The notes under the pieces were generated by a model. The model had not been told where the DNA came from and ran no database searches. It saw only the letters and a program-made list of their open reading frames with translations. Of a stretch of 64,000 bases of DNA, positions 1,372 to 19,304 are shown in pieces. A program made the translations under genes and the position numbers. Positions within the stretch are counted from its first letter, which is position 1; each line of letters opens with the position of its first letter. This DNA is from Tenericutes bacterium RIFOXYA12_FULL_35_10 (lineage in GTDB: Bacteria > Bacillota_I > Bacilli_A > Acholeplasmatales > Acholeplasmataceae). The stretch is from positions 1 through 64,000 of the forward strand of contig MIDA01000105.1 of NCBI GenBank assembly GCA_001830045.1, written 5' to 3'.

Positions 1372-3441
1372 ATGTCTTTTTTACTTTTTCTTTTACAGAG
1401 TATTCCAATCTTATTATCAAGAGTGGAATGGATCAATGATATCGTAGAAGTTCCTGTTTATTCTGAGTTAGAGCCTTATCGATATATTCCAGAAGCAAGA
1501 CTTTATATCGATGATGTCTGGATGAAAAATGCTTTAGTTGTTTATGAGAGAAACGGTGTCGAATGGACGTTTATATCAACCGTAAATACATCACATGTCA
1601 GAAGATATTCCATTAAATATGAAGCAAAGTTTGTTGATTATTACATAACTTCAGTTCATACGATTGTTTTTGATGTCGTTGATCTGATTTCTCCAGAAAT
1701 TATATTTATTCCTGAAAAACAGATAGCATATGGTGAGAAATTGCCTGATTTTACACAAGGTGTCGTTTTAACAGATAATTACTATGATCCACTTGATTTA
1801 AATGTTTTTATTGATACATCGTGTATTAATCAAAGTGCAGTTGGCATATACGACGTGACCTATCATATCTCTGATCCTTCGGGTAATCAGGTTTCTCAGA
1901 CGGTTTTGTTTCAGATTAAAGATGTGAAGGCACCCACGATAACACCATTAAAAGAAGTGGTGATCAATGTGGGTCAAACATTTGATTGGAAGACTTTCTT
2001 TAAGATTATAGATGATGTTGATCACGTATTACGTATTGATCTTGATTTGAGTGGTGCTAATTTATTAGCTATAGGAAGTTATCAAGGTAGCATTACTTCG
2101 ACTGACTTGAGTGGAAATCAAGCCATCCAGTTATTTCAAATCGAAGTTAAAGATTTAGAACCACCTAAACTTATGATGCGTATCACATGGCCAGATATCA
2201 TGGTTCATACCGAAATTTCAAGAGAACATTTAGAGAGTTATGTTTTATCTGTTACGGATAACTATGATGTACTTGAGATTTCCGATCTTAACATTCGTCA
2301 TGAGATTGATTCCAATTTATTAGGGACTTATCCTATTTACTATGAAATTAAAGATCGTTCAGGAAATGCAAAATCCTTAACGATTCATGTCAATGTTATT
2401 GATTCATTAAAGCCAACCATTACACTGATTAACCCTCTGATCTTCGATGTTTTTTCACCAACACCATTTTTACAGATGTTTTTCAAATTTGAAGATAATT
2501 ATACACCAGATGATGAGCTCATCTATAAAATCACTGCAGCTCCCAACATGAACAAAATTGGTTTATATCCCATCACGATTGAAGTCACTGATAGTTCAAA
2601 AAACAAACGGATTTATCAAGGGTATATCGAAGTTGTTGACCGCATCCCACCTGAAGTCATACAGATCAATGAGATCATCATCACTGACTTTGAAAAAAAG
2701 GATGTTCATTTTTTCTTTACATATGAAGATCAATATGATGAGGTGGATGATTTAAGATTTATGCTCATGGATGAGATGGTTAATTATGAAGTCATAGGTA
2801 GTTATGATGCGTATGTTAAAGTGACTGACACATCAGGTAATGAGTGTTTAGTGAACGTGATCGTGATGATTATCGATATTGAAGAACCTGAGCTCATCTT
2901 AAAACAGACATCTTACCAACATTTAATCGGTGCTGAACGACCCAACCTTGAATCATTTGTTGATACTGCATCGGATAACTATGATGATCTTGGTATTGGT
3001 GATGTGATGATAACGCATGACATTGATTGGGAAACGCTTGGCGTTTATCTCGTTCAATATGAATTGATGGATCAATCCATGAACCGAAAAACTGTCGAAT
3101 TTAAAATCATCATTGATGACAGAACACCGCCTGTCATCACGGCTTCAGATTTAAGTTATAGCGAAGGCGATCTCATCAATTTAATGGAAGGCGTTGAAGT
3201 TACTGACAATGTTGGTGTTTCAGGTATCACCTTCTTTCCATCAAATCTTGATCTAAATGAACCAGGGACCTATATCATCACCTATATCGCACGCGATTTC
3301 AGAGGTAATTATGTCATGTATGATCGTTTGGTGACGATCTACCCCAAATCTGATTCCATCAATGTCGTTTCATATCTTCCTGTGGGGATATTAACCATCA
3401 TTTGTGGTGCTGTGTTTTATATTCTCTACAAAAAAGGATAA
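1372..3441 (+). CDS. Surface protein with about seven Ig/HYR- or DUF5011-like repeats and a C-terminal TM anchor
   Basis: Recurring 'D-x-x-x-P-x-[IL] ... DN ... G-x-Y-x-[VI]-x-Y ... D-x-S-x-N' units of about 80 aa; C-terminal hydrophobic segment VVSYLPVGILTIICGAVFYILYKKG. Confidence 0.75.
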   Translation: MSFLLFLLQSIPILLSRVEWINDIVEVPVYSELEPYRYIPEARLYIDDVWMKNALVVYERNGVEWTFISTVNTSHVRRYSIKYEAKFVDYYITSVHTIVFDVVDLISPEIIFIPEKQIAYGEKLPDFTQGVVLTDNYYDPLDLNVFIDTSCINQSAVGIYDVTYHISDPSGNQVSQTVLFQIKDVKAPTITPLKEVVINVGQTFDWKTFFKIIDDVDHVLRIDLDLSGANLLAIGSYQGSITSTDLSGNQAIQLFQIEVKDLEPPKLMMRITWPDIMVHTEISREHLESYVLSVTDNYDVLEISDLNIRHEIDSNLLGTYPIYYEIKDRSGNAKSLTIHVNVIDSLKPTITLINPLIFDVFSPTPFLQMFFKFEDNYTPDDELIYKITAAPNMNKIGLYPITIEVTDSSKNKRIYQGYIEVVDRIPPEVIQINEIIITDFEKKDVHFFFTYEDQYDEVDDLRFMLMDEMVNYEVIGSYDAYVKVTDTSGNECLVNVIVMIIDIEEPELILKQTSYQHLIGAERPNLESFVDTASDNYDDLGIGDVMITHDIDWETLGVYLVQYELMDQSMNRKTVEFKIIIDDRTPPVITASDLSYSEGDLINLMEGVEVTDNVGVSGITFFPSNLDLNEPGTYIITYIARDFRGNYVMYDRLVTIYPKSDSINVVSYLPVGILTIICGAVFYILYKKG

Positions 3442-4037: not shown

Positions 4038-7025
4038 ATGTTTGGAACCTTATATTTACAAAGTGCATATAGCATGTTACACAATACGATTCCTTTAAAG
4101 GATTTGGTAGAACGTGCTAAACAAGCAGGTTATGATGTGGTTGCTTTAAGCGATACAGAGCTACATGGCTCTGTTGAACTTTTTAGAGAGTGCAAGAAAC
4201 ATCAGATTAAACCTGTTTTAGGATTAATGATCAAGGTATCTCATGAGTTAACCGATACCTCTTTTTTTGCATATGTGAAATCAGAAGAAGGATATCAAAA
4301 TCTTTTAAATATTGCACTAGCGGAAAAAGAAGTGGGTTTAGATGATGATTTCATCATCAATCACCAACAAGGCTTAATGTTTGTATCAGCTGGAAAATAT
4401 AGTTTAATTGACCGCGCTATCGATCAAGGTGACCTTGATTTAGCTAAACGAACACTTCTTTTTTATCAAAAAAATATAAATGAGTTTTATTTAGGTTTAT
4501 CTTTAGATACATTTCATGAAGAAATGAAGATTGCACCAGTTCTATTTAAGTTATCTGAACAAAATGATGTGAAATTACTTCCTATACATCAAACATCTTA
4601 TCTTGAAAAAGAAGATAAGGAAGTTTATGAAGCACTGATTAAAATTGAAGATGAAAAAAATACGGTATCTGAAGACTCAGATTACTCGCTTTTTTCAAAA
4701 GAACAACTTCTCCACCGTTTTCAAGATTATGAGTATGTTTTTGATACACTTTCTAAGGTTTTTGAATCAATTGATTTTGTATTCCATAAGCCTGTCTTTG
4801 AAATGCCAAGTTATCCTTTAGAACAAGGAACTTCAAAAGAGTTTTTAAGATCACTTGCTGCAGTTGGACTTAAAAAAAGATTAAAGAAAAATCAAAGTTC
4901 AACCTTAAAAACGTATCAAGAAAGACTTCATTATGAACTTTCTGTGATTGAAAAAATGGGATATGCTGATTATTTTTTAATCGTATATGATTTCGTGAAA
5001 TATGCGAAAACGCATGATATTTTAGTCGGTCCGGGTAGAGGTTCTGCTGCGGGTTCTTTAGTGGCGTACTGTTTAGGAATTACGGATGTAGATCCCCTTC
5101 AGTACGACCTTTTGTTTGAAAGATTTTTAAATCCTGAACGTATCACCATGCCAGATATTGATATGGATTTTCCAGATAATAAAAGAGATCAAGTTTTACA
5201 GTATGTTAAAGAAAAATATGGATCTCATCACGTGATTTCTATTGTGACTTTTGGTACGTTTGCGTTAAGATCATCGATTCGTGATATCGCAAGAGTCATG
5301 AAAATTGATCCGTCCAGAGTAAACGGCATTATCACACGCGTCGTCAATGAAGATTTAGATGAAACTGATCATGAAATGATGAGATTACTTCGGGTAGCTA
5401 AAAAGATTGAAGGGCTCCCAAGACACACAGGAACGCATGCTGCAGGCATGATTTTATCGAAACAAGATCTACTTCATTACATCCCCTTACAACCAGGAAT
5501 CAATAACTTCTATCAAAGCCAATTTGAAGCAAGTGAATTAGAAGCTTTAGGTCTACTTAAAATTGATTTTTTAGGTATCAGAAATTTAGCTGTGATTGAT
5601 GATGCTTTAAAAATGATTGAAGCTCAAGGGAAAAAGATTCATCTTTTAGATCTACCTCTCGATGACAAAAAAACATTTGATCTTTTATCTGCTGCAGAAA
5701 CCACAGGTATATTCCAGTTAGAATCATCTGGGATGCGTGCTGTTTTAAGAAAATTAAAACCAACATCATTTGAGGATATCGTGGCTATTCTTGCACTTTA
5801 TAGACCGGGTCCTATGGATCATATTGATGAGTATATTGAACGAAGAAATGGTAAAAGTTATACGTACATTCATCAAAACTTAGAACCCATTTTAAAACCG
5901 ACATATGGCATTATCGTATATCAGGAACAAATCATGCGTATCGCGCATGAGTTTGCCGGTTATACGCTTGCTGAAGCGGATTTATTAAGACGTGGTATCT
6001 CTAAAAAAGATAAAACTATATTGGATAGTGAACGTCTTCGTTTTCTTGAAAAGTGTAAACAAAAAGGATATAATGAACAAGATGCACATAACATTTATGA
6101 TTTAATTGTTAAGTTTGCTGATTACGGGTTTAACCGAAGTCATAGTGTTGCTTATGCACTGGTTGCTTATCAGATGGCATATTTAAAAGCGAATTATTTT
6201 TTAGTCTTTATGTCAATCTTGATTTCATCGGTCACGGGTAATGAATCGTTAACGATGGATTACATCACTGAAATCAAAGGACATGGTTACGAGATTAAAC
6301 CTCCACACATCAATCTTTCAACAGATCGTTATATCATTTCAAATGATGCATTGATCATGCCACTTCATGCCGTAAAAAGTATTGGTCGTGTCGCACTTCA
6401 AAAGATCATGGAAAATAGAGATGAGCAAGGATCTTTTAAAGATTATCAAGATTTTAAGCGAAGAATGAAAAAAGAGATTAATGATAAGAACGTTGAAATG
6501 CTGATTCATGCATCTGCACTTGATATCTTTGGGCTTACCCATCAAACGATGAATGATTCGAAACAAATCGATCATGCAGGTTATGAACTTTATGTCACAG
6601 ATTTCACCTTGCAGATGAAACCTGAATATAGTTTAAGTGATTTGCAGTCGTTTGAAAAAGAAGCATTAGGTTTTAATCTCATTTATCATCCGATGTCGAT
6701 TTATAAAGATCTTATAGAACGATTTAAACTTAAAAATTTAAATGAGATCAAATCAGGTCAAACCGGTTATGTGTTAGCACTTGTTAAAAAGAAAAAAACC
6801 ATTAAGACTAAACAAGGTAAAACGATGGCATTCATTGAACTTGATGATGGTATCACACAACTTGAGGTCACCTTATTTACAGAAATCTATCAGATGTATG
6901 AAAAACACAGTGAACACGACGTTTTCGTGTTTAAAGTGAGTTTAAATCAATATAAAGGACAATCAAGTTTTGTCGCTGATCACATCTTAACGACAGATGA
7001 ACTTGAAAAAGGTATGAAGAAATGA
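4038..7025 (+). CDS. dnaE: DNA polymerase III subunit alpha (DnaE type)
   Basis: PHP domain start, GPGRGSAAGSLVAYCLGITDVDP, PDIDMDFPD and YQEQIMRIAHEFAGY motifs; 995 aa. Confidence 0.95.
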   Translation: MFGTLYLQSAYSMLHNTIPLKDLVERAKQAGYDVVALSDTELHGSVELFRECKKHQIKPVLGLMIKVSHELTDTSFFAYVKSEEGYQNLLNIALAEKEVGLDDDFIINHQQGLMFVSAGKYSLIDRAIDQGDLDLAKRTLLFYQKNINEFYLGLSLDTFHEEMKIAPVLFKLSEQNDVKLLPIHQTSYLEKEDKEVYEALIKIEDEKNTVSEDSDYSLFSKEQLLHRFQDYEYVFDTLSKVFESIDFVFHKPVFEMPSYPLEQGTSKEFLRSLAAVGLKKRLKKNQSSTLKTYQERLHYELSVIEKMGYADYFLIVYDFVKYAKTHDILVGPGRGSAAGSLVAYCLGITDVDPLQYDLLFERFLNPERITMPDIDMDFPDNKRDQVLQYVKEKYGSHHVISIVTFGTFALRSSIRDIARVMKIDPSRVNGIITRVVNEDLDETDHEMMRLLRVAKKIEGLPRHTGTHAAGMILSKQDLLHYIPLQPGINNFYQSQFEASELEALGLLKIDFLGIRNLAVIDDALKMIEAQGKKIHLLDLPLDDKKTFDLLSAAETTGIFQLESSGMRAVLRKLKPTSFEDIVAILALYRPGPMDHIDEYIERRNGKSYTYIHQNLEPILKPTYGIIVYQEQIMRIAHEFAGYTLAEADLLRRGISKKDKTILDSERLRFLEKCKQKGYNEQDAHNIYDLIVKFADYGFNRSHSVAYALVAYQMAYLKANYFLVFMSILISSVTGNESLTMDYITEIKGHGYEIKPPHINLSTDRYIISNDALIMPLHAVKSIGRVALQKIMENRDEQGSFKDYQDFKRRMKKEINDKNVEMLIHASALDIFGLTHQTMNDSKQIDHAGYELYVTDFTLQMKPEYSLSDLQSFEKEALGFNLIYHPMSIYKDLIERFKLKNLNEIKSGQTGYVLALVKKKKTIKTKQGKTMAFIELDDGITQLEVTLFTEIYQMYEKHSEHDVFVFKVSLNQYKGQSSFVADHILTTDELEKGMKK

Positions 7026-7912
7026 CACACGAATCACAAAGAGAAGTCATCGTCGCCATTCGTTTGGGATTATTCATCAACATTTTTTTAGCGATCTTAA
7101 AACTATCGTTTGGTTTTTGGGGTCATGCTCAAGCTTTAATCAGTGATGGTTTAAACTCTGCATCTGATATCTTAATCAGTTTAATGATTTTAGTGGTTTT
7201 AAAACATGCGACTAAAAAACCGGATTATGATCATCCCTATGGTCATGAAAAATATGAAGGTTTAGCCTATTTCGTTTTAGGCATCGTCTTTTTACTCACA
7301 TCAGGTTTGATCGTGTTTGATACGGTGGTTGCGATTATTGATCACATTGCAAACCCAGGTGCAGTGGAAGGTCCACATATCTTTACGGTATTTGTTTCCA
7401 TCATTGCACTGATTGTCAAATTTGTTTTATTTCGTTATTATCGATATATTGGTAAGAAGTATAACCACCCAACGATTCATGCAGATGCAAAAAATCATAT
7501 GCTAGATGTGTATGCAACAAGTTTTTCTGTGGCTGGTTTAACGATTGCACAATTTGGTTTAGTTTATTTTGATGACATAGCAGCACTGATTATCGCATTC
7601 TTTATTTTAAGATTGGCGGTTCAAATCATTATAGAGTCAACATCGTTTCTAACGGATCAAGCACCCTCTAAAGATGAGATTAAAGCGATTTATAGTGTGA
7701 TACTATCGATAGAAGGCGTGATTCAAGTTGATGATTTAAAGGTAAGAAAACATATGACACAACGTTATGTGGATGTTGAAATTGCAGTAAGATCTTCACA
7801 CACACTTGAACATGCACATAAGATTGCAGAAACGGTGCATCATCAAGTTGAAGACGTTTTTCCTGACGTGATTCATTGCATGGTTCATGTCAATCCAGAG
7901 AAAAATATATAA
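7022..7912 (+). CDS. Cation diffusion facilitator family transporter
   Basis: N-terminal TMs with SDGLNSASD and HPYGHEKYE motifs; ATGA overlap with dnaE. Confidence 0.9.
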   Translation: MTHESQREVIVAIRLGLFINIFLAILKLSFGFWGHAQALISDGLNSASDILISLMILVVLKHATKKPDYDHPYGHEKYEGLAYFVLGIVFLLTSGLIVFDTVVAIIDHIANPGAVEGPHIFTVFVSIIALIVKFVLFRYYRYIGKKYNHPTIHADAKNHMLDVYATSFSVAGLTIAQFGLVYFDDIAALIIAFFILRLAVQIIIESTSFLTDQAPSKDEIKAIYSVILSIEGVIQVDDLKVRKHMTQRYVDVEIAVRSSHTLEHAHKIAETVHHQVEDVFPDVIHCMVHVNPEKNI

Positions 7913-7920
7913 AATAATTG

Positions 7921-7981
7921 AAGGCGAAAGGCTAACAATGTGTAAACGTAGTTTAATTCATTGTTATCTATCGCCTTTTTT
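7921..7981 (+). terminator. Long nested hairpin terminator-like structure
   Basis: AAGGCGA/TCGCCTT, TAACAATG/CATTGTTA and TAAAC/GTTTA nested arms followed by T run. Confidence 0.7.
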
Positions 7982-8025
7982 GATAAAATGATGATAGCAA
8001 ATTGAATGAGAAAGGCGGAATCCAT

Positions 8026-11000
8026 ATGCCATCACTATTAGTCTTACAATGGGGGATCGTCGGCTTCTATGTCGTGATTTACTTCCTTATTGGATTTATG
8101 AGGGGAGGTTCCAAGTCCACGTACTTTACGATCGTCGCGTTTATCACGACGTTTATTAGTTTGTACTTAATCTCATTCATCTCACTGAATTTAATTTTAT
8201 CAAATACGTTCACGTTGGTGAACCTTTTAGAAATGGCCAATGGTTATGCAGGTGGTATCATTCCTGATGAAGTCATGACTTATGCAGCCGATCCTACGTT
8301 AGCTGCGTTTGCGATTGCGGTGATTGACCTCATCTTACGTATTATCGGCTTCATTATTTTATATCCACTCATTAAAGGTTTACTCACACTGATTATTTTT
8401 AGACCCATTTGGAGTTTTGGAATTAAAAAAGCCTTACTTAGAAGACAAAATGAAAAACTAGAAGAACGCTCACTTGATCAAGGTGAAAAAGCATATAAAC
8501 CAAGAAAGCGATTAAAGAAAACATTTGTTGGTCGCTTTTGGGGTGGATTCATGGGATCTGCGCAAGGTTTATTGGTCGCATTCATTACTCTTTTACCACT
8601 ACTCATTATGGCAGGCTTCTTATCGGTTCCTGATCAAAATACGCAAGTATCAGCAAACTCAAATACGTCAGAACTCGCAACCACAATTCCTGGACTACCT
8701 GATTTAGGTGGACTGATGGGAACGGTTGATGATTATCTGTTACAAATCGATGAAATGAATGAACAAGGTTTAGGTGCAATGGTCAGACAGATTACCGTTT
8801 CAGGAAAATCGTTAGATCGTTACATTTTTGACCGTGTATTTACGACGCAAGTTAAACAAGGTGATTTAGTCACTGACATTAACTGGATTAATGAGTTACA
8901 AGGCATTCTTCAAATTACCAGAACTGTCTATGAAGGCGGTTATTTAGATGAAGGATTTGGTCTTGAAGATCTCAATGAAGATAAGTTAAATGATATTGAA
9001 GTTGTCTTCAATTACTTAAAGACTTCCGATTTAATGGCATACATGATTCCAACTGCAACCGCATTTGGCCTTGATATGTTTAGAGATCAACTTCCTGCTA
9101 ATATCACAGACGAACTTGCAGATGCTGCAGTTAATGGTGTTCAAGCCATCGATTGGAATGCTGAATTTGAGAATGTTCAAGCCATCGTCAATGCAGTCTT
9201 AGCCTTTGGTTCTGTTGAAGAATTACAAGCCTACATGGCTGATCCGATGTTGCTTCTTGATTTGACACCTGAAGAAGGTGAAAAGCTTGCAGATATCGTG
9301 AGAGCTATTGGTAACATGCAGCTTTTAGAAATGATGAGCATTGGTGCTGAATATGCAACTACACTCGATTCTATTCAAGCACAATTAACTTGGATTGCAG
9401 AAGATGAAAAACAAGCTTATTTAGAAGAACAACTCGCTTTTTTAATTGAAGATGAAACATTCTTTAATGGCGTTAATGGTGAATTTGCACGCTTAGCGCT
9501 CCTCATCGAAGGGCTTTATACGGATGAATTTGGTGATGTTGATTTAAGAGCACTAATGAACATTAATGATGTTGAATCGTTTATGGCAGCGCAAAACGAA
9601 GAGTGGATTGATAACCTACTCGAAAAAATCGTTGATTTAGAAATTCTATTAAACGCCATTCCTGTCGGTGTTGACTACGCATTATATACGCAAGTTGGTG
9701 ATCTTGTTGATCAAGAACTTGCAGGTGAAATTGAAACCGCATTAAATGAAATCGATTGGGAAGCAGAAATTTTAAATGTGGGTGACATTTATAAAGATGC
9801 AGTCAGCATTGGTGCTACAGCATTACTTGCAGATAATCCAGATTATATGGCATTTGTTGATAACGTCGTAGAAAACAACATGGATCAAGTCAGAGTCATC
9901 GTATCGCGTATTTTTGAAGATAGTGCGTTAGTCAGTGCTGCTTTAGAACTTGCAGCACCACTTCTTGTTGAACGTTTTGTTACAGATCCAGTGCTTGCTG
10001 ATTTAGTTCAAGAAGCTCTCATGTCTGATCCAGAATCCGGTGTTGTTGATTTTAATGTTGGACAAGAAATTAACACCGTTTTAGATATTGTTGAAAAAGT
10101 ATATCTGTTTACGAATGCAACTGAGATTGCGAACTTAAGTGGTATGACCACAGAATCCAAGTTAGCCTTATTTGCAAGCTTTGGTACATTAACTGAAACT
10201 GAATTTGAAGAACTTAAAACATCATTTTCAAGTCTTCAATTATTAGACCGTGTGGGTGAATCTGGATTAGCTTATGTCAGCGACACCATGGGTATAGAAC
10301 AAATCTATGTGCCTGAAACTGTTGATTTAGGTGCCGATTTAGGCTCTCTTTTAGGTTTAGGATATTATGTTGCAAAATATACGCATGATCAAAAGGTTTT
10401 ATATCCAACCTATGAAGAGATTGATTTCGCACCATTGTTTGCGGATCAAACATTTAGATCTTATTTACTCCCAACTGTTGAAAATAATCATTCCAATTTA
10501 TTACTTGCAACCCTAGCACATAATGCGAAAGTGTATGCAGATGATCCTTCGATTGGTAATTATTTAAGTGTTCCAGATAGTCTAAAAAATGCATCTCCCG
10601 AATCTGATGAATGGTTTGATGAGTTAAATGCTTTACTCGGCGCAGTTTTCGATTTAGCAGCATCCTTTGAAGATTCAGAAGCTTTAACGCTTTCTTATAA
10701 AGATGTGATTGCATTCACACAAGCACCTACGGGTGCAAGTATTGAACTGATCACACAATTTGGTGAATTATCCAAAACTGAAGAAGCTTTTGGTTCACTC
10801 GATAGTTCAGTTATTTTAAGATCATCAGTGAAGAAAGCGATTGATACGTATGGTGCATCAACTTCAGGTGCACTCGGTGGTTATGAAGTTAAAACACCAG
10901 CGATTGCACATGATGGTTTGATGCTTAATGAAGGTGTCTTAGTTGAATTAATCCATGGCCTTGCAAACTTTGTTTCAGAATTGAATCAAACATGGATGTA

Positions 11001-14000
11001 TGAAACGATTGCCGAACTCACAAGTAGTTTATCCGTTGACGGTATTCTTCCTGCATTTAACAACGTTTCAGATGCTTCATTAATTACCTTTGGCAATGTG
11101 ACACTCATTCAAGGGGTATTAAGTGAACTCCTTTTAAGTACTGACATTCAAACCTTTGGTGTTGAAAAAATTAATGGTGCTCAAACCTTCTTTGTTGCAC
11201 CAAGTGACTTCTTAGCACTTGATCCTCTCTTACAAGATAGTGAAGGTGTTAAAGGTGATGAAATAGGTAAACTCTTGATTTCTTTTAAGAGTCTTCAATT
11301 GCCAGATCAAGCATCCCTATCTTCATTTGGACCAGTCATGATGGCTGAAATGGAAGGTAGAAATAGCGATGGCACAAAAGATGATTTAGACCGATTCTTT
11401 GATTCGGGTATTTTATATACGTTCTTAGATAAGATCATTCAATTAGATGATTTAGGAACGTTCTTAAATGATGCTTTATCAACGGCATTTGGGGATGCTC
11501 CCATCACCGTTGATCTTTCCATACACCCTGATATTTTAGGGGTTGATGGTGTTGATGAACCGATTGAAGTGGGTAGAATCACGAAGAATGAATTTAGAAA
11601 TATGGTCATCTCAGCAGGGTTATTAGGACCTATTGGTGAAATCGGTATTGAAACATTCCCAGGCATGATTGATCCGATGGCAACTGAAGATGATTTTACA
11701 ACCTTCTTAAATTCTGATTTTATTTATACCATTGTTGGTCGTCTATTCGAAAACGAAGGTTTTGGTGATTACATTGGTGGTTTCTTAGCTGGTGCTTTTG
11801 GTGATGGTATTGATCTCGTGATGACATCTCCAAATGATGCTAAAGGAACAACCGGAGTTGAAACAGGTATTATCACGAAACATGAATTAAGACAAATCAT
11901 GGTTTCATTTAAATTGATTGGTTTAGATCAAGGTACCGATAATATCAATGAAGAAGCTATTTTACAACTAAAAGGTCAAAATGATGTTTTAGGTGTCGAT
12001 GATTTCGATCGTTTCATTGAATCGAAATACATTGCAGATAAGTTATCGATTATTTTAACATCAGATACGATCATTACCATGTTAGCTGCAGGTCGCTTCG
12101 TTCCTGCTGATTTCGTGTTACCTATTTCATCCTATACAACCATTGATGGTAGAAAGCGATTAACCAATGATGAATTTTCAAATATCTTTGGTGGTTTGAA
12201 TGTGTTAGGCATTACCTCATTTGATGGTGCTGGTTTAGGTATTGGCACATTGTCAGGTTTAACAGATCCTGAAGTTGATGAACTTTTACTTTCAAATTAT
12301 CTTTATACATTTATCGATTTAATGCTAAAATCTGAAACAAGTTTTACCATTCCTTCAACGGCACTTGAAACTTCAGGTGAGTATGATGGTATGGTGAAGA
12401 AGAGTGAAATTGCAGATATCTTTGTTGCAGTTAGCATTTTCAATTTAACAGATGGACAAGCACCAGATCCAACGTTGATTACGGTTGCTCAAATTCAAGA
12501 TTTACTCGCTCAAACCGATTCAGCGATTGTTCAGTCATTATTATCTGATGCCATCATTGATGCATTAGGTGTCGAAAATATACCAGATGATGCTTATGAA
12601 AGTGCTGGTTTACTCACACAAGAAGAACTAGATGCCATCGTAGCAGCACTTGCAGTGATTGCAGGAGATCCTAATACACCAGTTACGCAAGTGGCTGATG
12701 CGATTGATACGTTAACCGTCGGTCAAGTCAATGACATTGATTTAACCGAAACAGGATCAGTAACGATTAAACAGATGTTATCTGATGAAATTATTGCTGC
12801 AGTGAATGCATCCAATGTTCATGAAGATGCTTATCAACCATTAAGTATGCATTCAGGCACAATTCTTTTAAGTACAACGTTAGAAACACCACTTCGTCGT
12901 CTATCTGATAGTGAACTTCAAGAAATCATTGGTGCACTTAATATTTTAGCAAACAATAATCCTGAAACTTTAATTACAGATATCTCAATGGATGTTAAAG
13001 TAGGTCAAGCCGTTGAACTGAAGTCAAATAACTCATTACTGATTAAACAACTGATTTCTGATAATATCGAAACCTCATTAAATACGGTTGTTGTGATTCC
13101 AAATAGCGCATATGTCGATGTTGAAAAGACGAGATTAACCACCGTTGAAATCAATCAAATGATTGATGCTATGGTTGTCTTAGCAAATGGCGACTTAAAC
13201 TTACCGGTGACCAGTATAACAACTGATGTTAATGTAGGTCAAACCCAAGGTTTAAAGACGAATACATCACTCATTATTAGACAGCTTATCACCGATAATA
13301 TGGTTGATATTTTAGGTGCTGCATCGATTCCAGCAGATGCTTATGATCAAGCAGAACCAACTATGTTAACCGCGAATGAAGTTGTTGAAATGATTGATGC
13401 ACTTTATATCTTGGCAGAACAGCAAGATAGTAAACCTGTGATTGAAGTTTCAACTGACGTTACTGTTGGCCAAGTTCAAGAATTAAATGGTGGCACTTCA
13501 CTGATCATTAGACAACTGATTACCGATAATATCGTTGATGTTTTAGGTATAACCGTAGTGATTCATGCAGATGCCTATGATACAGCACAACCTACGATGT
13601 TAACACAAACCGAAATTGATCAAATGGTTTTAGCCATGGTTGTCTTAGCAAATAATGATTTAACAACGCCTGTAGCACTCATCTCAACCAATGTTACTGT
13701 GGGTCAAACACAAGGCTTAAAGACGAATACATCACTGATCATTAAGCAACTCATCACTGATAAGATTGAAGATGTTTTAGCATTAACAGTGACTTTCCCA
13801 ACAGAAGCTTATGATACCAATTATCCAACGATGTTAACGCAAGATGAAATAAGTGAAATGATTGATGCACTTTATGAATTAGCAGATGAAGATCCCCTAC
13901 TTCCAGTCACATCCGTTTCAACGAATGTCACTGTCGGTCAGACACAATCACTCATCGAAAATACATCATTAATCATTAATCAACTCATTTCTGATAAGAT

Positions 14001-16401
14001 TGTGGATACACTTTCTGTTTCAAATACGATTCCAGATAGTGCTTATACCGATGTTACAAAAGTAATACTAAAAGATAGTGAAATTGATAATATGATCTTA
14101 GCGCTTGATGTTTTAGCAGATGGCGATGACGATATGCTCGTTACAGATGTTCCTACAGATGTCACGATTGGACAACTCAAGAGTTTATCTGTATCAACAT
14201 CTGTCATTATTCAACGTTTAATTACCGATTCGATCGTAGATGCTGTTAACTTAACTTACTTCCCGGATACTGCTTATGTTGGTGATACACCAAGTGATCA
14301 GTTAAAGTCAACCGAAGTATCCAACATGATTTTAGCACTTGAAGTTTTAGCTGGAAGTACTGTTCCTGGTGATAGAGATACAGTGAAAGTATCTGCAGTA
14401 TCAACGAATGTGACTGTTGGACAAACAGAAACACTAAATAACAATACATCACTCATTATCAATCAATTGATTTCTGAATCGATTGTTGATACCTTAACAA
14501 CAGCTGGTTCAACCATTCCAGATGATGCTTATACATCATTAGCTAAAACAACTTTAACTGAAGATGAAATGACTGAAATGATTGACGCTTTAAAGATTTT
14601 AGCAAATAATAACTTAAACTTACCGGTTGCAAGCATATCAACCAATGTGACTGTCGGTCAAACCAAAGCACTTAAACTTAATGCATCTGTCATCATTAGA
14701 CAACTCATTAGTGATGCCATTGTGGATTCCATTGGTGTGACAGCAACCATTCCAGATGATGCGTATACTGATTTATCACAAACACGTCTATCTGATACCG
14801 AAATTAATAATATGATTGAGGCACTTGATATTTTAGCAAATGGTAATGATGCACTCTTAGTTGAGGATGTTTCAACTGATATTAGTATTGGTCAGTTAGA
14901 CAGTTTAACAGCATCAACATCACTCATCATGCAAAAACTGATTACCGATTCCATTGTTGATGCCATCGGTGCAGCTAAAGTTCCTGATGAAGCATACTTA
15001 CTTGATACACCAGGTAATAACTTAAAACCTGCAGAAGTATCAGAAATGATTGAAGCATTAAGAGTATTAGCAAACGATCCACTGAATCCACCAGCAGTCA
15101 TTGATGATGTGAAAGTATCAGCTATTGGTATTGATGTTACCGTTGGACAGACGAAAGATCTTAAGACAAATGGTTCAATCATTATTAAACAAGTGATTTC
15201 AGATGCCATTGTTGAGATGTTAACTGAACCTAAAGTTAGAGAAACAGCATTTATTACACCAGCTGAAAAAGATCGTTTAACCAATGATGAAATTGGTTAT
15301 ATGATTGATGCACTTGATGTGTTATCAGGTGGTATTGACAATACGTTAGTCAGTGCGATCACAGTTAATGAAAATACGTTAAGTATTGATAATTTACAAG
15401 CATTTAATGAAAACTCGATTGTCTTAAACCGCTTAATTAGTAGTGCAATCATTAGTGGTTTAGGAGCAAATGATATTCCAGTTGAATCCTATGAAGATGA
15501 TGTCCTCAAGACTGATTTGATTCGTCCAGAAATTGATGCGATTCTCTTAGCACTTGAAACGCTTGGTATTGATACAAGTGGTGCAGGTGGTATTGGTATG
15601 GCAGACTTAACGTTTGCAGATTTAGATGTTGTAGTTGCGATTGGAACAACTGATTTAGTCAATTACCCACTTGGATTCTCACCAATTGTTGCACATATCT
15701 TATCAGCACCAATGATTTCAGCGGTATCTGATATCAGATTGGGTCATGAATATGGTGTTCCATCAACTGCATATAGAAACACGAACGATTTATTGCATGA
15801 AGAAATTGAAGGCTTAGTTGCAGCACTTAAACTGATTGGTAATGTTCAACCAGAAGATGAAGAAACAACAACTATAGCTGATATTATCGTTGATCCAGAT
15901 TCATTTAACGGTACGATGATTACAAACTTAGTTGCACTTGATAAACTCATTGTTTACCGTATGATTTCTAAGGGTATAAGTGATTCTAACATTGATACGA
16001 TACCTTCACATGTTACTGATATTAATGCAAGAAACTATGACCCATTATTACCAGGAACTCCAGAAATATATGATATCAAGATTGATGAAATGAGTCATAT
16101 TGCAACTTCGATGGATATCTTAGGTATAACTTCAGTTGCAGAGATTGGCAATATGACCATGGCAAATCTCACTGGATTAACTTCACAAGATGTAGAAACA
16201 TTAGTTGAATCATTAGTTGTACCAGAAAGTGATGCCAACACGATTATTTACTACATTATTTCAGAAACAGTGGATTCATCGAATACACTATTCCCAGATG
16301 ATAATCCAAATACTTACAATCCTGCATTTGATGATAATTATGTAATGGATGGTGGAGTCAGAGTTAGATTAACAAGAGAAGCTTTGGCAAGTGTCTTATA
16401 A
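8026..16401 (+). CDS. Giant membrane-anchored repeat protein: CvpA-like four-TM N-terminus plus ~2,590-aa repeat region
   Basis: Continuous ORF; ATG at 8026 is preceded by AAAGGCGG (the tracked 8002 start is TTG). Four hydrophobic segments, with GRFWGGFMGSAQGLLVAF resembling the last CvpA helix, then degenerate tandem repeats. Confidence 0.85.
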   Translation: MPSLLVLQWGIVGFYVVIYFLIGFMRGGSKSTYFTIVAFITTFISLYLISFISLNLILSNTFTLVNLLEMANGYAGGIIPDEVMTYAADPTLAAFAIAVIDLILRIIGFIILYPLIKGLLTLIIFRPIWSFGIKKALLRRQNEKLEERSLDQGEKAYKPRKRLKKTFVGRFWGGFMGSAQGLLVAFITLLPLLIMAGFLSVPDQNTQVSANSNTSELATTIPGLPDLGGLMGTVDDYLLQIDEMNEQGLGAMVRQITVSGKSLDRYIFDRVFTTQVKQGDLVTDINWINELQGILQITRTVYEGGYLDEGFGLEDLNEDKLNDIEVVFNYLKTSDLMAYMIPTATAFGLDMFRDQLPANITDELADAAVNGVQAIDWNAEFENVQAIVNAVLAFGSVEELQAYMADPMLLLDLTPEEGEKLADIVRAIGNMQLLEMMSIGAEYATTLDSIQAQLTWIAEDEKQAYLEEQLAFLIEDETFFNGVNGEFARLALLIEGLYTDEFGDVDLRALMNINDVESFMAAQNEEWIDNLLEKIVDLEILLNAIPVGVDYALYTQVGDLVDQELAGEIETALNEIDWEAEILNVGDIYKDAVSIGATALLADNPDYMAFVDNVVENNMDQVRVIVSRIFEDSALVSAALELAAPLLVERFVTDPVLADLVQEALMSDPESGVVDFNVGQEINTVLDIVEKVYLFTNATEIANLSGMTTESKLALFASFGTLTETEFEELKTSFSSLQLLDRVGESGLAYVSDTMGIEQIYVPETVDLGADLGSLLGLGYYVAKYTHDQKVLYPTYEEIDFAPLFADQTFRSYLLPTVENNHSNLLLATLAHNAKVYADDPSIGNYLSVPDSLKNASPESDEWFDELNALLGAVFDLAASFEDSEALTLSYKDVIAFTQAPTGASIELITQFGELSKTEEAFGSLDSSVILRSSVKKAIDTYGASTSGALGGYEVKTPAIAHDGLMLNEGVLVELIHGLANFVSELNQTWMYETIAELTSSLSVDGILPAFNNVSDASLITFGNVTLIQGVLSELLLSTDIQTFGVEKINGAQTFFVAPSDFLALDPLLQDSEGVKGDEIGKLLISFKSLQLPDQASLSSFGPVMMAEMEGRNSDGTKDDLDRFFDSGILYTFLDKIIQLDDLGTFLNDALSTAFGDAPITVDLSIHPDILGVDGVDEPIEVGRITKNEFRNMVISAGLLGPIGEIGIETFPGMIDPMATEDDFTTFLNSDFIYTIVGRLFENEGFGDYIGGFLAGAFGDGIDLVMTSPNDAKGTTGVETGIITKHELRQIMVSFKLIGLDQGTDNINEEAILQLKGQNDVLGVDDFDRFIESKYIADKLSIILTSDTIITMLAAGRFVPADFVLPISSYTTIDGRKRLTNDEFSNIFGGLNVLGITSFDGAGLGIGTLSGLTDPEVDELLLSNYLYTFIDLMLKSETSFTIPSTALETSGEYDGMVKKSEIADIFVAVSIFNLTDGQAPDPTLITVAQIQDLLAQTDSAIVQSLLSDAIIDALGVENIPDDAYESAGLLTQEELDAIVAALAVIAGDPNTPVTQVADAIDTLTVGQVNDIDLTETGSVTIKQMLSDEIIAAVNASNVHEDAYQPLSMHSGTILLSTTLETPLRRLSDSELQEIIGALNILANNNPETLITDISMDVKVGQAVELKSNNSLLIKQLISDNIETSLNTVVVIPNSAYVDVEKTRLTTVEINQMIDAMVVLANGDLNLPVTSITTDVNVGQTQGLKTNTSLIIRQLITDNMVDILGAASIPADAYDQAEPTMLTANEVVEMIDALYILAEQQDSKPVIEVSTDVTVGQVQELNGGTSLIIRQLITDNIVDVLGITVVIHADAYDTAQPTMLTQTEIDQMVLAMVVLANNDLTTPVALISTNVTVGQTQGLKTNTSLIIKQLITDKIEDVLALTVTFPTEAYDTNYPTMLTQDEISEMIDALYELADEDPLLPVTSVSTNVTVGQTQSLIENTSLIINQLISDKIVDTLSVSNTIPDSAYTDVTKVILKDSEIDNMILALDVLADGDDDMLVTDVPTDVTIGQLKSLSVSTSVIIQRLITDSIVDAVNLTYFPDTAYVGDTPSDQLKSTEVSNMILALEVLAGSTVPGDRDTVKVSAVSTNVTVGQTETLNNNTSLIINQLISESIVDTLTTAGSTIPDDAYTSLAKTTLTEDEMTEMIDALKILANNNLNLPVASISTNVTVGQTKALKLNASVIIRQLISDAIVDSIGVTATIPDDAYTDLSQTRLSDTEINNMIEALDILANGNDALLVEDVSTDISIGQLDSLTASTSLIMQKLITDSIVDAIGAAKVPDEAYLLDTPGNNLKPAEVSEMIEALRVLANDPLNPPAVIDDVKVSAIGIDVTVGQTKDLKTNGSIIIKQVISDAIVEMLTEPKVRETAFITPAEKDRLTNDEIGYMIDALDVLSGGIDNTLVSAITVNENTLSIDNLQAFNENSIVLNRLISSAIISGLGANDIPVESYEDDVLKTDLIRPEIDAILLALETLGIDTSGAGGIGMADLTFADLDVVVAIGTTDLVNYPLGFSPIVAHILSAPMISAVSDIRLGHEYGVPSTAYRNTNDLLHEEIEGLVAALKLIGNVQPEDEETTTIADIIVDPDSFNGTMITNLVALDKLIVYRMISKGISDSNIDTIPSHVTDINARNYDPLLPGTPEIYDIKIDEMSHIATSMDILGITSVAEIGNMTMANLTGLTSQDVETLVESLVVPESDANTIIYYIISETVDSSNTLFPDDNPNTYNPAFDDNYVMDGGVRVRLTREALASVL
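12481..15378 (+). repeat. Tandem protein-coding repeats of about 78-90 aa (~12 clear units)
   Basis: Recurring '[TS]VGQTxxLxxNTSLIIxQLITDxIVDxLxxxxxIPDDAYxxxxxTxLTxxEIxxMIDALxVLAxxDxxxPVxxVSTNV'. Confidence 0.9.
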
Positions 16402-16415
16402 CAAACATATTTAAA

Positions 16416-16447
16416 GAAAGTCAGTAGATTAATTCTACTGGCTTTTT
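16416..16447 (+). terminator. Terminator of the giant gene
   Basis: AAGTCAGTAGA-ttaat-TCTACTGGCTT (one G-U) then TTT. Confidence 0.75.
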
Positions 16448-16449
16448 AA

Positions 16450-16478
16450 TAAAAAAGACCTCAACAACTGAGGTCTTA
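16450..16478 (-). terminator. Terminator of the minus-strand peptidase operon
   Basis: AAGACCTCA-acaac-TGAGGTCTT; A run on + gives a U run on the minus transcript. Confidence 0.75.
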
Positions 16479-16481
16479 TTG

Positions 16482-17909
16482 CTATAACTGATCTAATAAA
16501 TTGATATAAAACTGAACACCATGAACGACATTATCTATTGATATATCTTCATCATACCCATGAATCTTAGCTAAATCAGCTTTAGACACGTCCATAGGTG
16601 AAAATTTATACACATGATCAGAAATTTGATGATAATGTCTTGAGTCGGTGGTTGCTATCATGAGATAAGGAGATACGATCACTTCTGGCCAGGTTTGATT
16701 GATAGCTTTTTTGACTTTATCAAAGGCATCGTCAACAACTGATGTTGGTGTTGCTTCTGAGATAGCAATAGCTTCAATGTTGATCATGTCATCGTTAATG
16801 ATCTTCTTAATTCGCTTTAAAACGACATCACTTGTTTCACCCGGTCTTAATCTGTAATTGATTCCAATGGTTGCTTCTGAGGGTAAAATATTGATGGCTT
16901 GACTTCCTTCAGCAAGCGTGAAAGCTTGCGTTGTTTTAAACATGGCTAAGAATTCACCACCCGATAGTTTTGCAATCAATTTAACCAGTGGCATGAACAA
17001 CCATAGGTTTGCAAATAACATTTTTATCCCAAAGGATTTTGAGTGAGGTGCGAGTGTTGTAAAGAGTTGTTTAACAGGTTTAGTCATTTTAAGTTTAAAG
17101 CTTTTGTGATTGTTAAGCTTATCGATAGCTTTAGCAAGTCTGGTAATAGGTGTTTGTTTGGGTGGTGTTGATGCATGTCCACCTTTAGAAGTAGCTGTAA
17201 GTTTGACATTCATAAATCCTTTTTCAGCGATACCAATAACTGCAACTTTTTCTTTCACACCGGGAAACATGTTTGATACGATGGCACCACCCTCATCTAA
17301 AACCATGTACGGATGAATACCTCTTTCTTTTAAGGTGTTCATGATTCCAGGAGCTGAAGGACCGTAGATTTCTTCATCACCTGAGAAGGCAAGATAGAGA
17401 TCATGTTTAAAAACTTTTCCGTTTTTTATGACATGTTCAACAGATTCCATGACAGCATTTAATGTCGATTTGGTATCTAGAGTTCCTCGTCCATAGATGT
17501 GAGTATCTGAAATTTTACCAGAGAACGCATCATCTTTCCAACCTTCTTGAACAGGAACAACATCATAATGTGACATCAATACGATAGGATCTTCACTGGA
17601 TTCCCCAGGTATTCTAAATAACATACCGCGTTCAATCTCTTCATAGGAAGATATCTTCATGATATGGGGATAGCGTTCTTGTGCAAACTTTCTAAACGTT
17701 TGAAAAACTTCGGGATTTTCTTTTGAACGATCCACGTGTGAAACCGTTGGTATTTGAATCATCTTTGATAAAGATTCAATCACTCTTTTTTCATCAATCT
17801 CATGCCATTTCTTCATTTCAGGGTAAGACTTTTCCTTAAATGTGAATGCACGATAAAGAACAACGATGAGAAGAAGGGGTATGATCAAAAGAAGATATAA
17901 CCACCACAT
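16482..17909 (-). CDS. M20 family metallopeptidase with N-terminal membrane anchor
   Basis: SHYDVVPV, GRGTLDTKST, SGDEEIYGP motifs; N-terminal MWWLYLLLIIPLLLIVVLYRAF. Confidence 0.88.
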   Translation of the reverse strand: MWWLYLLLIIPLLLIVVLYRAFTFKEKSYPEMKKWHEIDEKRVIESLSKMIQIPTVSHVDRSKENPEVFQTFRKFAQERYPHIMKISSYEEIERGMLFRIPGESSEDPIVLMSHYDVVPVQEGWKDDAFSGKISDTHIYGRGTLDTKSTLNAVMESVEHVIKNGKVFKHDLYLAFSGDEEIYGPSAPGIMNTLKERGIHPYMVLDEGGAIVSNMFPGVKEKVAVIGIAEKGFMNVKLTATSKGGHASTPPKQTPITRLAKAIDKLNNHKSFKLKMTKPVKQLFTTLAPHSKSFGIKMLFANLWLFMPLVKLIAKLSGGEFLAMFKTTQAFTLAEGSQAINILPSEATIGINYRLRPGETSDVVLKRIKKIINDDMINIEAIAISEATPTSVVDDAFDKVKKAINQTWPEVIVSPYLMIATTDSRHYHQISDHVYKFSPMDVSKADLAKIHGYDEDISIDNVVHGVQFYINLLDQL

Positions 17910-18568
17910 TAAGAAATCATTCCCTTCTTATAAAGAATGCGAGCAACAAGTATTGAGATTACAACACCTACTGGAACCATAATCCCTACAAGTCCACCAC
18001 TACCTGGTACAAACGGGAAGAAAATCATCATGATAACCAGTGGAACAATCGCAATCTTTATTCTTTTTGAAATATAAACAATACCTAATGCGCCAAAGAG
18101 TGCAGGGATAATGTTATCAAATGCAGGTTTTAATGCAGGAGACTCTAACAATGGTGTGAGTGGAATAATAAGTAGAGCACCCACAAAAATAATGAGTGTT
18201 GTAATAATTGATGAAGAAGCAACCGCAAGGGTTGCGATCACATCACCTTCATCCGTGCCTTTTTCGACACCTAAAGCATCTTGAGCGTTTAACGCTGCAG
18301 GAACCTTTAAACTGGTTAAATTACCGGTCACAAAAGCTAAATAGGTTGAACCTACACCAAGCATTGGACTAAATGTAAAAACTTCAATGGTTGTTACTGG
18401 CCAGAAAATAATTGCAGTTGCTATAAACCCAGGAATGAAGTGTGCAAATGTTGGCCAAACGCCTGTTCCAATACTTAAGATAATGGGTGCACTTAAGAAA
18501 AGAAGTAAAGCGCCTATCATCCATAAACGTCCTTCAACATGAAGCTGATCTTGATATGTTCTTTTCAT
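17909..18568 (-). CDS. Multi-TM membrane protein, partner of the DUF5058-type protein
   Basis: Start placed at MKRTYQDQLHVEG (18568), separated from the upstream stop by one base (TAACATG); six or so TM segments. Confidence 0.75.
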   Translation of the reverse strand: MKRTYQDQLHVEGRLWMIGALLLFLSAPIILSIGTGVWPTFAHFIPGFIATAIIFWPVTTIEVFTFSPMLGVGSTYLAFVTGNLTSLKVPAALNAQDALGVEKGTDEGDVIATLAVASSSIITTLIIFVGALLIIPLTPLLESPALKPAFDNIIPALFGALGIVYISKRIKIAIVPLVIMMIFFPFVPGSGGLVGIMVPVGVVISILVARILYKKGMIS

Positions 18569-18569
18569 G

Positions 18570-19304
18570 TTATCTGACCCCCAATCCCGCATAAACGATA
18601 GCGAGTGCCATCGAGACAATCATCGATACGGGAAGTGCATAGTTTTTAAGCCATTCCCATTTATATTTTTTCATGAGATAACCTAATACCATGATGAGAA
18701 CTGCAGATGTAGCGAATACAATTAATCCTAAAACAGAAATATAAGGGTCTTCACCTTCAGGTGTTTTAGGTGCTAAGATATAACCCGCAAACGCTGAAAT
18801 CATCCCAATGAATAATGCATCCATCATGATTTGATTCCATGTTTGATCTTTTTCTCGCATTTTTTTCATACCCAAACTCATTTTCTTAAAGAAAAATGGA
18901 ATGATAATGAGTGGAGGTAGGCATCCTAAGGTCATCACCCAAACTGCAGTAATCACCATTTCAGTTGTGAGTGTATCACCGATTTGACGACCAAAGACAC
19001 CGTTGATCACATTAATCGCTGCTGGAAGTTCATAGGTCACAGCACCTAGGGTTGCTAAGCGCCATCCAGCAATCATTGAGCCAAAAATTTTAGTTAATGC
19101 AACCAAACCAATTAAAATTGCAACGCTTGGAGCAAGCGAAAATACCATCGATGATGAGATGGTTTGATTGATTTGTTCCTTAGAGAAACCAAGTTCAATC
19201 GCTCTCTTTTTCGCTTTGAGTAATGCATAAACGGATTGTGTTAAGACATAAAGAAAAATGATACTCATCAAACTATAAACCCACCATGAGTTTAAGAAAG
19301 CCAT
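18570..19304 (-). CDS. DUF5058-type membrane protein
   Basis: WWVYSLMSIIFLYVLTQSVYALLKAKKRAIELG N-terminus and TM pattern; tightly coupled to next two genes. Confidence 0.7.
   Translation of the reverse strand: MAFLNSWWVYSLMSIIFLYVLTQSVYALLKAKKRAIELGFSKEQINQTISSSMVFSLAPSVAILIGLVALTKIFGSMIAGWRLATLGAVTYELPAAINVINGVFGRQIGDTLTTEMVITAVWVMTLGCLPPLIIIPFFFKKMSLGMKKMREKDQTWNQIMMDALFIGMISAFAGYILAPKTPEGEDPYISVLGLIVFATSAVLIMVLGYLMKKYKWEWLKNYALPVSMIVSMALAIVYAGLGVR

Follow-up and report, generated by a model that had tools for sequence, protein, structure and literature searches.

The wall-less bacterium Tenericutes bacterium RIFOXYA12_FULL_35_10 (GTDB lineage Bacteria; Bacillota_I; Bacilli_A; Acholeplasmatales; Acholeplasmataceae) carries a gene for a giant protein of 2,791 aa, which we read, with a probability of roughly one half, as a structural component of the cell surface: a rod, anchored in the membrane, that belongs to a protective or spacing coat. 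The data support a rod that is held in the membrane, lies outside the cytoplasm and is strongly constrained, and from this we infer a surface-coat function. A coat or spacer is preferred because the gene is single-copy and vertically kept, and because the order of the units is conserved between two species and the length varies over longer distances.

In the proposed arrangement, a four-helix membrane domain, a remote relative of CvpA, would fix the protein in the membrane so that its two ends lie outside, and a conserved juxtamembrane domain would join this anchor to an acidic rod in which helical units are stacked. The rod would project from the cell and form a protective or spacing coat in these mostly wall-less bacteria, and its length would shift over evolution through the loss or gain of units of ~78 residues. 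The window analysed here, to which all nucleotide positions refer, is a stretch of 64,000 nucleotides (contig MIDA01000105.1, positions 1 to 64,000, forward strand) from assembly GCA_001830045.1, a genome of 106 contigs and 2.05 Mb.

The giant gene

The gene is a single uninterrupted open reading frame (ORF) at 8026-16401 on the forward strand, with its stop codon at 16399-16401; the coordinates of the original prediction hold and the frame is intact. A full-length orthologue with 78% identity is found in a relative, the MAG 'Acholeplasmataceae bacterium UBA5769' (L026). A ribosome-binding site read from the sequence, AAAGGCGG (8011-8018, +), precedes the ATG at 8026. An alternative in-frame start is present at TTG 8002; the ATG is the likelier start because the relatives conserve a start of the form MPS.... 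The protein is encoded once in the genome.

An intrinsic-terminator-like hairpin with a U-run (7920-7981, +) occupies the gap between the gene of a cation diffusion facilitator (CDF) transporter and the giant gene (folding energy -22.6 kcal/mol, z -5.0 relative to shuffled sequences), and a pattern scan detected two adjoining terminator-like hairpins at 16415-16477, in the gap before the convergent gene for an M20 peptidase (folding energy -30.8 kcal/mol, z -8.3). With hairpins on both sides, the giant gene is probably transcribed alone, as its own unit. Promoter-like sites near the gene were not more numerous than expected by chance in a pattern scan.

A membrane anchor with a predicted relation to CvpA

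The candidate four-helix, CvpA-like anchor spans residues 1-200 (8026-8625, +) and is proposed from an alignment (A1) of the N-terminal 230 residues from 21 relatives, profile comparison with CvpA proteins and the charges of the loops. Hydrophobicity peaks at residues 4-22, 36-54, 94-112 (with the helix reaching to ~126) and 183-201, in agreement with the four N-terminal hydrophobic segments first described, and the motifs quoted with them (FMRGGSKS, KKALLRRQNEKLEERS and GRFWGGFMGSAQGLLVAFITLLPLLIMAGF) are all found in the protein. The anchor has a predicted cytoplasmic loop with the pattern GFxRGxxKS (residues 23-31), a basic loop between TM3 and TM4, and the motif GRxxGGxxGxxrG (residues 169-181) before TM4. 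G23, G27, K30, S31, I128-W129, R170, G173, G177, G181 and P191 are invariant in the 21 aligned anchors. Class-wide, the glycine and basic motifs are near-invariant, and both in the loop joining TM1 to TM2 and ahead of TM4 they line up with the motifs of CvpA.

As a single sequence, the giant protein has no match to the CvpA family PF02674 in a Pfam scan and misses its gathering cut-off of 29.3 bits. PF02674 matches do occur in five of 21 family members (best E 7e-4), and two distant giants match almost the full length of the model with E 1.6e-5 and 2.3e-5, at 24.9-25.3 bits, under the cut-off. Further, an 846-aa ORF of genome G044 scores 34.2 bits against PF02674, and the same ORF is matched by the family profile. 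When this profile was compared by hhalign with 30 CvpA proteins from the host's class, it aligned at 92.4% with a score of 50.6 over columns 11-192, as against scores of 12-19 and 1% or less for the controls (two reversed, eight locally shuffled). Because the family profile aligns with CvpA and the distant members narrowly miss the Pfam cut-off, the anchor is predicted to be a remote CvpA homologue, without formal Pfam membership. The CvpA-like N-terminus of the original prediction is thus upheld by the profile comparison and by the relatives' E of 1.6e-5 and not by the direct Pfam score of the protein; a CvpA-like score is missing for the single sequence and present for the family.

The anchor resembles CvpA in its four TM helices, in a GxxRGxxK-type TM1-TM2 loop and in the GRxxGxxxGxxrG pattern before TM4. 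It differs in the tail of ~2,590 aa, which departs from the short, tail-free form, and in its surroundings, since purF adjoins cvpA in E. coli (PMC6705877) and is not a neighbour of the giant gene. In the class, the ORFs that match PF02674 best measure 157-360 aa; many of the PF02674 ORFs are shorter than 300 aa, and many others measure 500-1,100 aa or longer. The membrane part of the mycobacterial protein MarP is likewise CvpA-like. MarP (Rv3671c), a membrane serine protease, begins with four TM helices and carries a C-terminal domain in the periplasm (PMC4992679), the same order of parts as predicted for the giant protein. In MarP the tail is a trypsin-like protease, whereas that of the giant protein is predicted to be a rod of helical repeats; Pfam and NCBIfam scans detected no protease domain in it, and its AlphaFold model is all-helical. 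A CvpA-type anchor carrying a soluble outside tail had been expected to be unusual; that it lacks any precedent is not supported in view of MarP and of the CvpA-domain ORFs of 500-1,100 aa or longer in the class.

A predicted helical rod built of repeats

Behind the anchor, residues 201-254 (8626-8787, +) form a putative flexible linker outside the cell, with the lowest conservation and a pLDDT below 50. It is followed by an all-helical region at residues 255-860 (8788-10605, +), with AlphaFold2 pLDDT mostly 75-94. The first ~150 residues of this region contain a juxtamembrane motif conserved class-wide, F268-D269 ... E290, of which F, D and E are invariant in 21/21 sequences. Longer, diverged repeat units occupy residues 861-1482 (10606-12471, +), as indicated by profile comparison, which traces the repeat back to ~865 (hhalign 64.5% for ~865-985), by weak HMM pieces at 1344-1396 and by a pattern visible in the translation. 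The main array, at residues 1483-2661 (12472-16008, +), comprises 15 units of ~78 aa with i-Evalues from 3e-15 to 7e-33, the first of them partial; at the DNA level nine copies of 96 nt recur in it, mostly at a spacing of 231-255 nt, and its AlphaFold2 model (residues 1483-2324) has a mean pLDDT of 85.6. A degenerate last unit and a C-terminal half-repeat ending in RLTREALASVL complete the protein at residues 2662-2791 (16009-16398, +). Each unit of ~78 aa is laid out as a helix, a short strand and turn, a short helix, a further helix and a PxxAY turn. An 83-row repeat alignment (A4), in which MAFFT had staggered overlapping windows of one protein, was dropped and A5 was used.

Profile comparison of residues 255-860 did not bear out the same repeat there, although the region is predicted to be helical. 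The description of the ectodomain as repeat-built therefore applies to about three quarters of the tail, back to ~865, and not to residues 255-860. The AlphaFold model of residues 1-1130 has a mean pLDDT of 77.4; values lie mostly at 75-94 across residues 270-1100 and at a moderate ~50-77 in the TM region. Both models are helical except for short strands, and the tail is predicted from them to form a long all-helical rod.

As expected beforehand, the repeats lie outside any described family. Pfam and NCBIfam gave sub-threshold matches only (RHH_9, WapI and DUF6290), which were rejected; PDB sequence searches returned nothing at E up to 1, and Foldseek searches of the models against PDB and BFVD returned no significant match. 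The best Foldseek matches, to importins and huntingtin (E 0.034 and 0.020, probability 0.30 and 0.13, TM-score about 0.1), were rejected, together with tape-measure matches, as insignificant, generic helical resemblance. With no significant fold match, the structure tells nothing about binding or assembly. The stacked helices do recall alpha-solenoids of the HEAT/ARM type, to which importins and huntingtin belong, but the unit of ~78 aa has short beta bridges and is predicted to be extracellular, and the Foldseek E-values are 0.02 or worse.

Giant1-3 of Apilactobacillus kunkeei are surface proteins, 3,000-8,000 aa in size, whose predicted alpha-helical repeats form long arrays (PMC12863079). 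By description rather than by sequence, they share with the giant protein its huge size and long helical repeats. The passages of that paper on their architecture give them a beta-solenoid domain at the N-terminus and other domains at the C-terminus and mention no four-TM anchor (PMC12863079), and the AlphaFold model of residues 1-1130 of the giant protein has no beta-solenoid.

Topology and location of the tail

Across 21 homologues, the mean net charge is +2.3 in loop 1, -3.0 in loop 2, +9.3 in loop 3 and -4.2 after TM4, which by the positive-inside rule points to an N-out/C-out topology. The tail of the giant protein is free of cysteine, with D+E at ~16% and K+R at ~4.6%. Among 24 tails, cut by script after residue 260 from stop-to-stop frames (some of which stop at contig ends), 20 contain no cysteine, and all 24 together hold 21 cysteines in 51,713 residues, compared with 0.63% cysteine in the soluble proteins of the window. 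Similarly, K+R amounts to 5.1% in the 24 tails against 12.3% in these soluble proteins, although it is not low in some relatives (11.3% in the tail of L043 and 12.6% in the A. palmae ORF). The tail is predicted to lie outside the cell because of the loop charges, the cysteine-free related tails and the low Lys+Arg content, and the earlier placement of both ends outside is thereby supported.

No segment after residue 260 of the giant protein exceeds a Kyte-Doolittle value of 1.7, as a TM-like segment would; some relatives have one or two late hydrophobic segments slightly above this threshold. An LPXTG motif, an SLH domain and a C-terminal TM helix are all absent from the protein, and its acidic tail without C-terminal TM or LPXTG stands as first described.

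Helical solenoids are most frequent as intracellular scaffolds, and the best, insignificant fold matches are to importins and huntingtin. Both points would suit a cytoplasmic tail, which would serve inside the cell as a scaffold or as a cytoskeletal rod attached to the membrane. The positive-inside pattern in 21 homologues, the depletion of Cys and of Lys/Arg, and the precedent of MarP, in which four TM helices precede an outside C-terminal domain, make such a tail highly improbable.

Distribution in the class and cell-wall genes

The family profile matches 71/296 genomes of the host's class, or about a quarter, and 35/295 genomes in a phylum-wide sample, all of them within that class. The carriers include the cultured Acholeplasma laidlawii, A. 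palmae and A. brassicae; genome G038 is A. brassicae, and we take G131 and G207 to be A. laidlawii and A. palmae. The A. laidlawii ORF (L114:5436-9878, 1,481 aa) aligns without the first TM segment, and its start is uncertain. Homologues within the order are ORFs of 1,586-3,890 aa, some ending at contig ends, and relatives across the class range from ~1,000 to 4,461 aa, the longest (L116:3904-17286) being open at a contig end. The distant ORFs have in common the four-TM start and the invariant FD...E juxtamembrane motif, and the repeats are present in 23/247 class genomes, mostly within giant ORFs.

Some members stand apart. In the class-level family f24, neighbouring proteins with CvpA starts occur in pairs of 1,340/2,697 aa (L130:1888-15543), 1,176/2,711 aa (L131:1672-13481) and 583 (cut)/3,163 aa (L124:3-11423). 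At G200:C1:980552-983608, one in-frame TAG lies inside the first profile match, which may reflect a broken gene, an assembly error or a real split. The profile search found no family member in the small genomes of genus g117 (0.7-0.9 Mb; phytoplasma-like by size).

The giant surface-protein family is widespread and, it appears, undescribed. No paper joining Acholeplasma with colicin V production and no description of the family were found in a literature search outside which most subscription journals lie. In the A. oculi genome paper, the passages on large, surface or membrane proteins and adhesins do not contain such a protein; in the Izemoplasma paper, adhesin, surface protein, CvpA, hypothetical protein and colicin had no match. 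The natural fusion of a CvpA domain with a predicted outside rod makes the topology and role of CvpA testable in a culturable wall-less organism, and the giant protein is a candidate surface cover of cells without a wall.

The wall gene mraY is absent in 57/71 giant-positive and 110/225 giant-negative genomes (Fisher p 2e-6). This test treats related genomes as independent, and absences may stem from incomplete assemblies; the association is therefore a lead only. Moreover, 14 giant-positive genomes carry mraY, which weakens a role purely as a wall substitute. A bolder reading, which we consider unlikely, is that a class-wide family of CvpA-anchored helical rods supplies the main protein coat of many wall-less bacteria, that these rods assumed mechanical or barrier tasks once peptidoglycan had disappeared, and that the CvpA domain is a general module for export and anchoring.

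Selection, function and gene order

Comparison with the UBA5769 orthologue gives dN/dS values of ~0.135 for the whole gene and 0.096 for the anchor, both approximate because dS is near or above 1. The gene is under purifying selection, which extends across all parts, and the order of the units is stable between the two species. Orthologous units are 69-87% identical, as against a mean of 47% among the units within one protein. Over longer distances, the tail presumably evolves in length by gain and loss of units of ~78 residues.

The anchor is the best-conserved part (87% identity with the UBA5769 orthologue). Together with its low dN/dS, the invariant Gly/Arg/Lys motifs and the FD...E motif, this would also fit a protein whose membrane function comes first. 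Its CvpA-like domain would then be a transporter, a channel or a factor conferring tolerance, and its ectodomain would serve as a scaffold, sensor or recruitment platform, much as MarP bears an enzyme tail on a four-TM anchor. EHEC and two vibrios need cvpA to resist deoxycholate (PMC6705877), which is in keeping with such a function. We consider this reading rather unlikely, as Pfam and NCBIfam detect no catalytic or ligand domain in the tail, and the wide variation in tail length and unit number suits a spacer better than a sensor.

The original prediction had instead suggested an adhesin, a surface layer or a contact system, for which we find no direct support. An adhesin or aggregation fibre, binding surfaces, host material or cells through its repeats or tip, would be in keeping with a huge, acidic, repeat-built protein predicted to lie outside, and giant helical-repeat surface proteins elsewhere are tied, in the passages describing them, to aggregation, biofilm and cell interaction (PMC12863079). 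It is nevertheless rather unlikely here: Pfam and NCBIfam scans reveal no known adhesion domain, the purifying selection in all parts and the unit order that is stable between two species, without diversification, speak against a fast-changing host adhesin, and the gene is a single, vertically kept copy close to dnaE.

The gene order flavodoxin-dnaE-CDF-giant is common to several genera. In the window, the conserved neighbours are dnaE (DNA polymerase III alpha; 4038-7025, +), identified by Pfam/NCBIfam and synteny, and the CDF cation efflux transporter gene (7022-7912, +), identified by PF01545/PF16916 and synteny. Upstream of flavodoxin-dnaE in several relatives, and at 1372-3441 (+) in the window, is a gene whose product of 689 aa contains Ig-like, HYR and LapB-type repeats. 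On the other side, a convergent M20 peptidase, a 236-aa membrane protein and a DUF5058 protein (16482-19304, -) adjoin the giant gene in several relatives as well, and the trio is possibly a transporter with a peptidase. The 236-aa protein and its orthologue in L027 share 94% identity, compared with 82% for dnaE.
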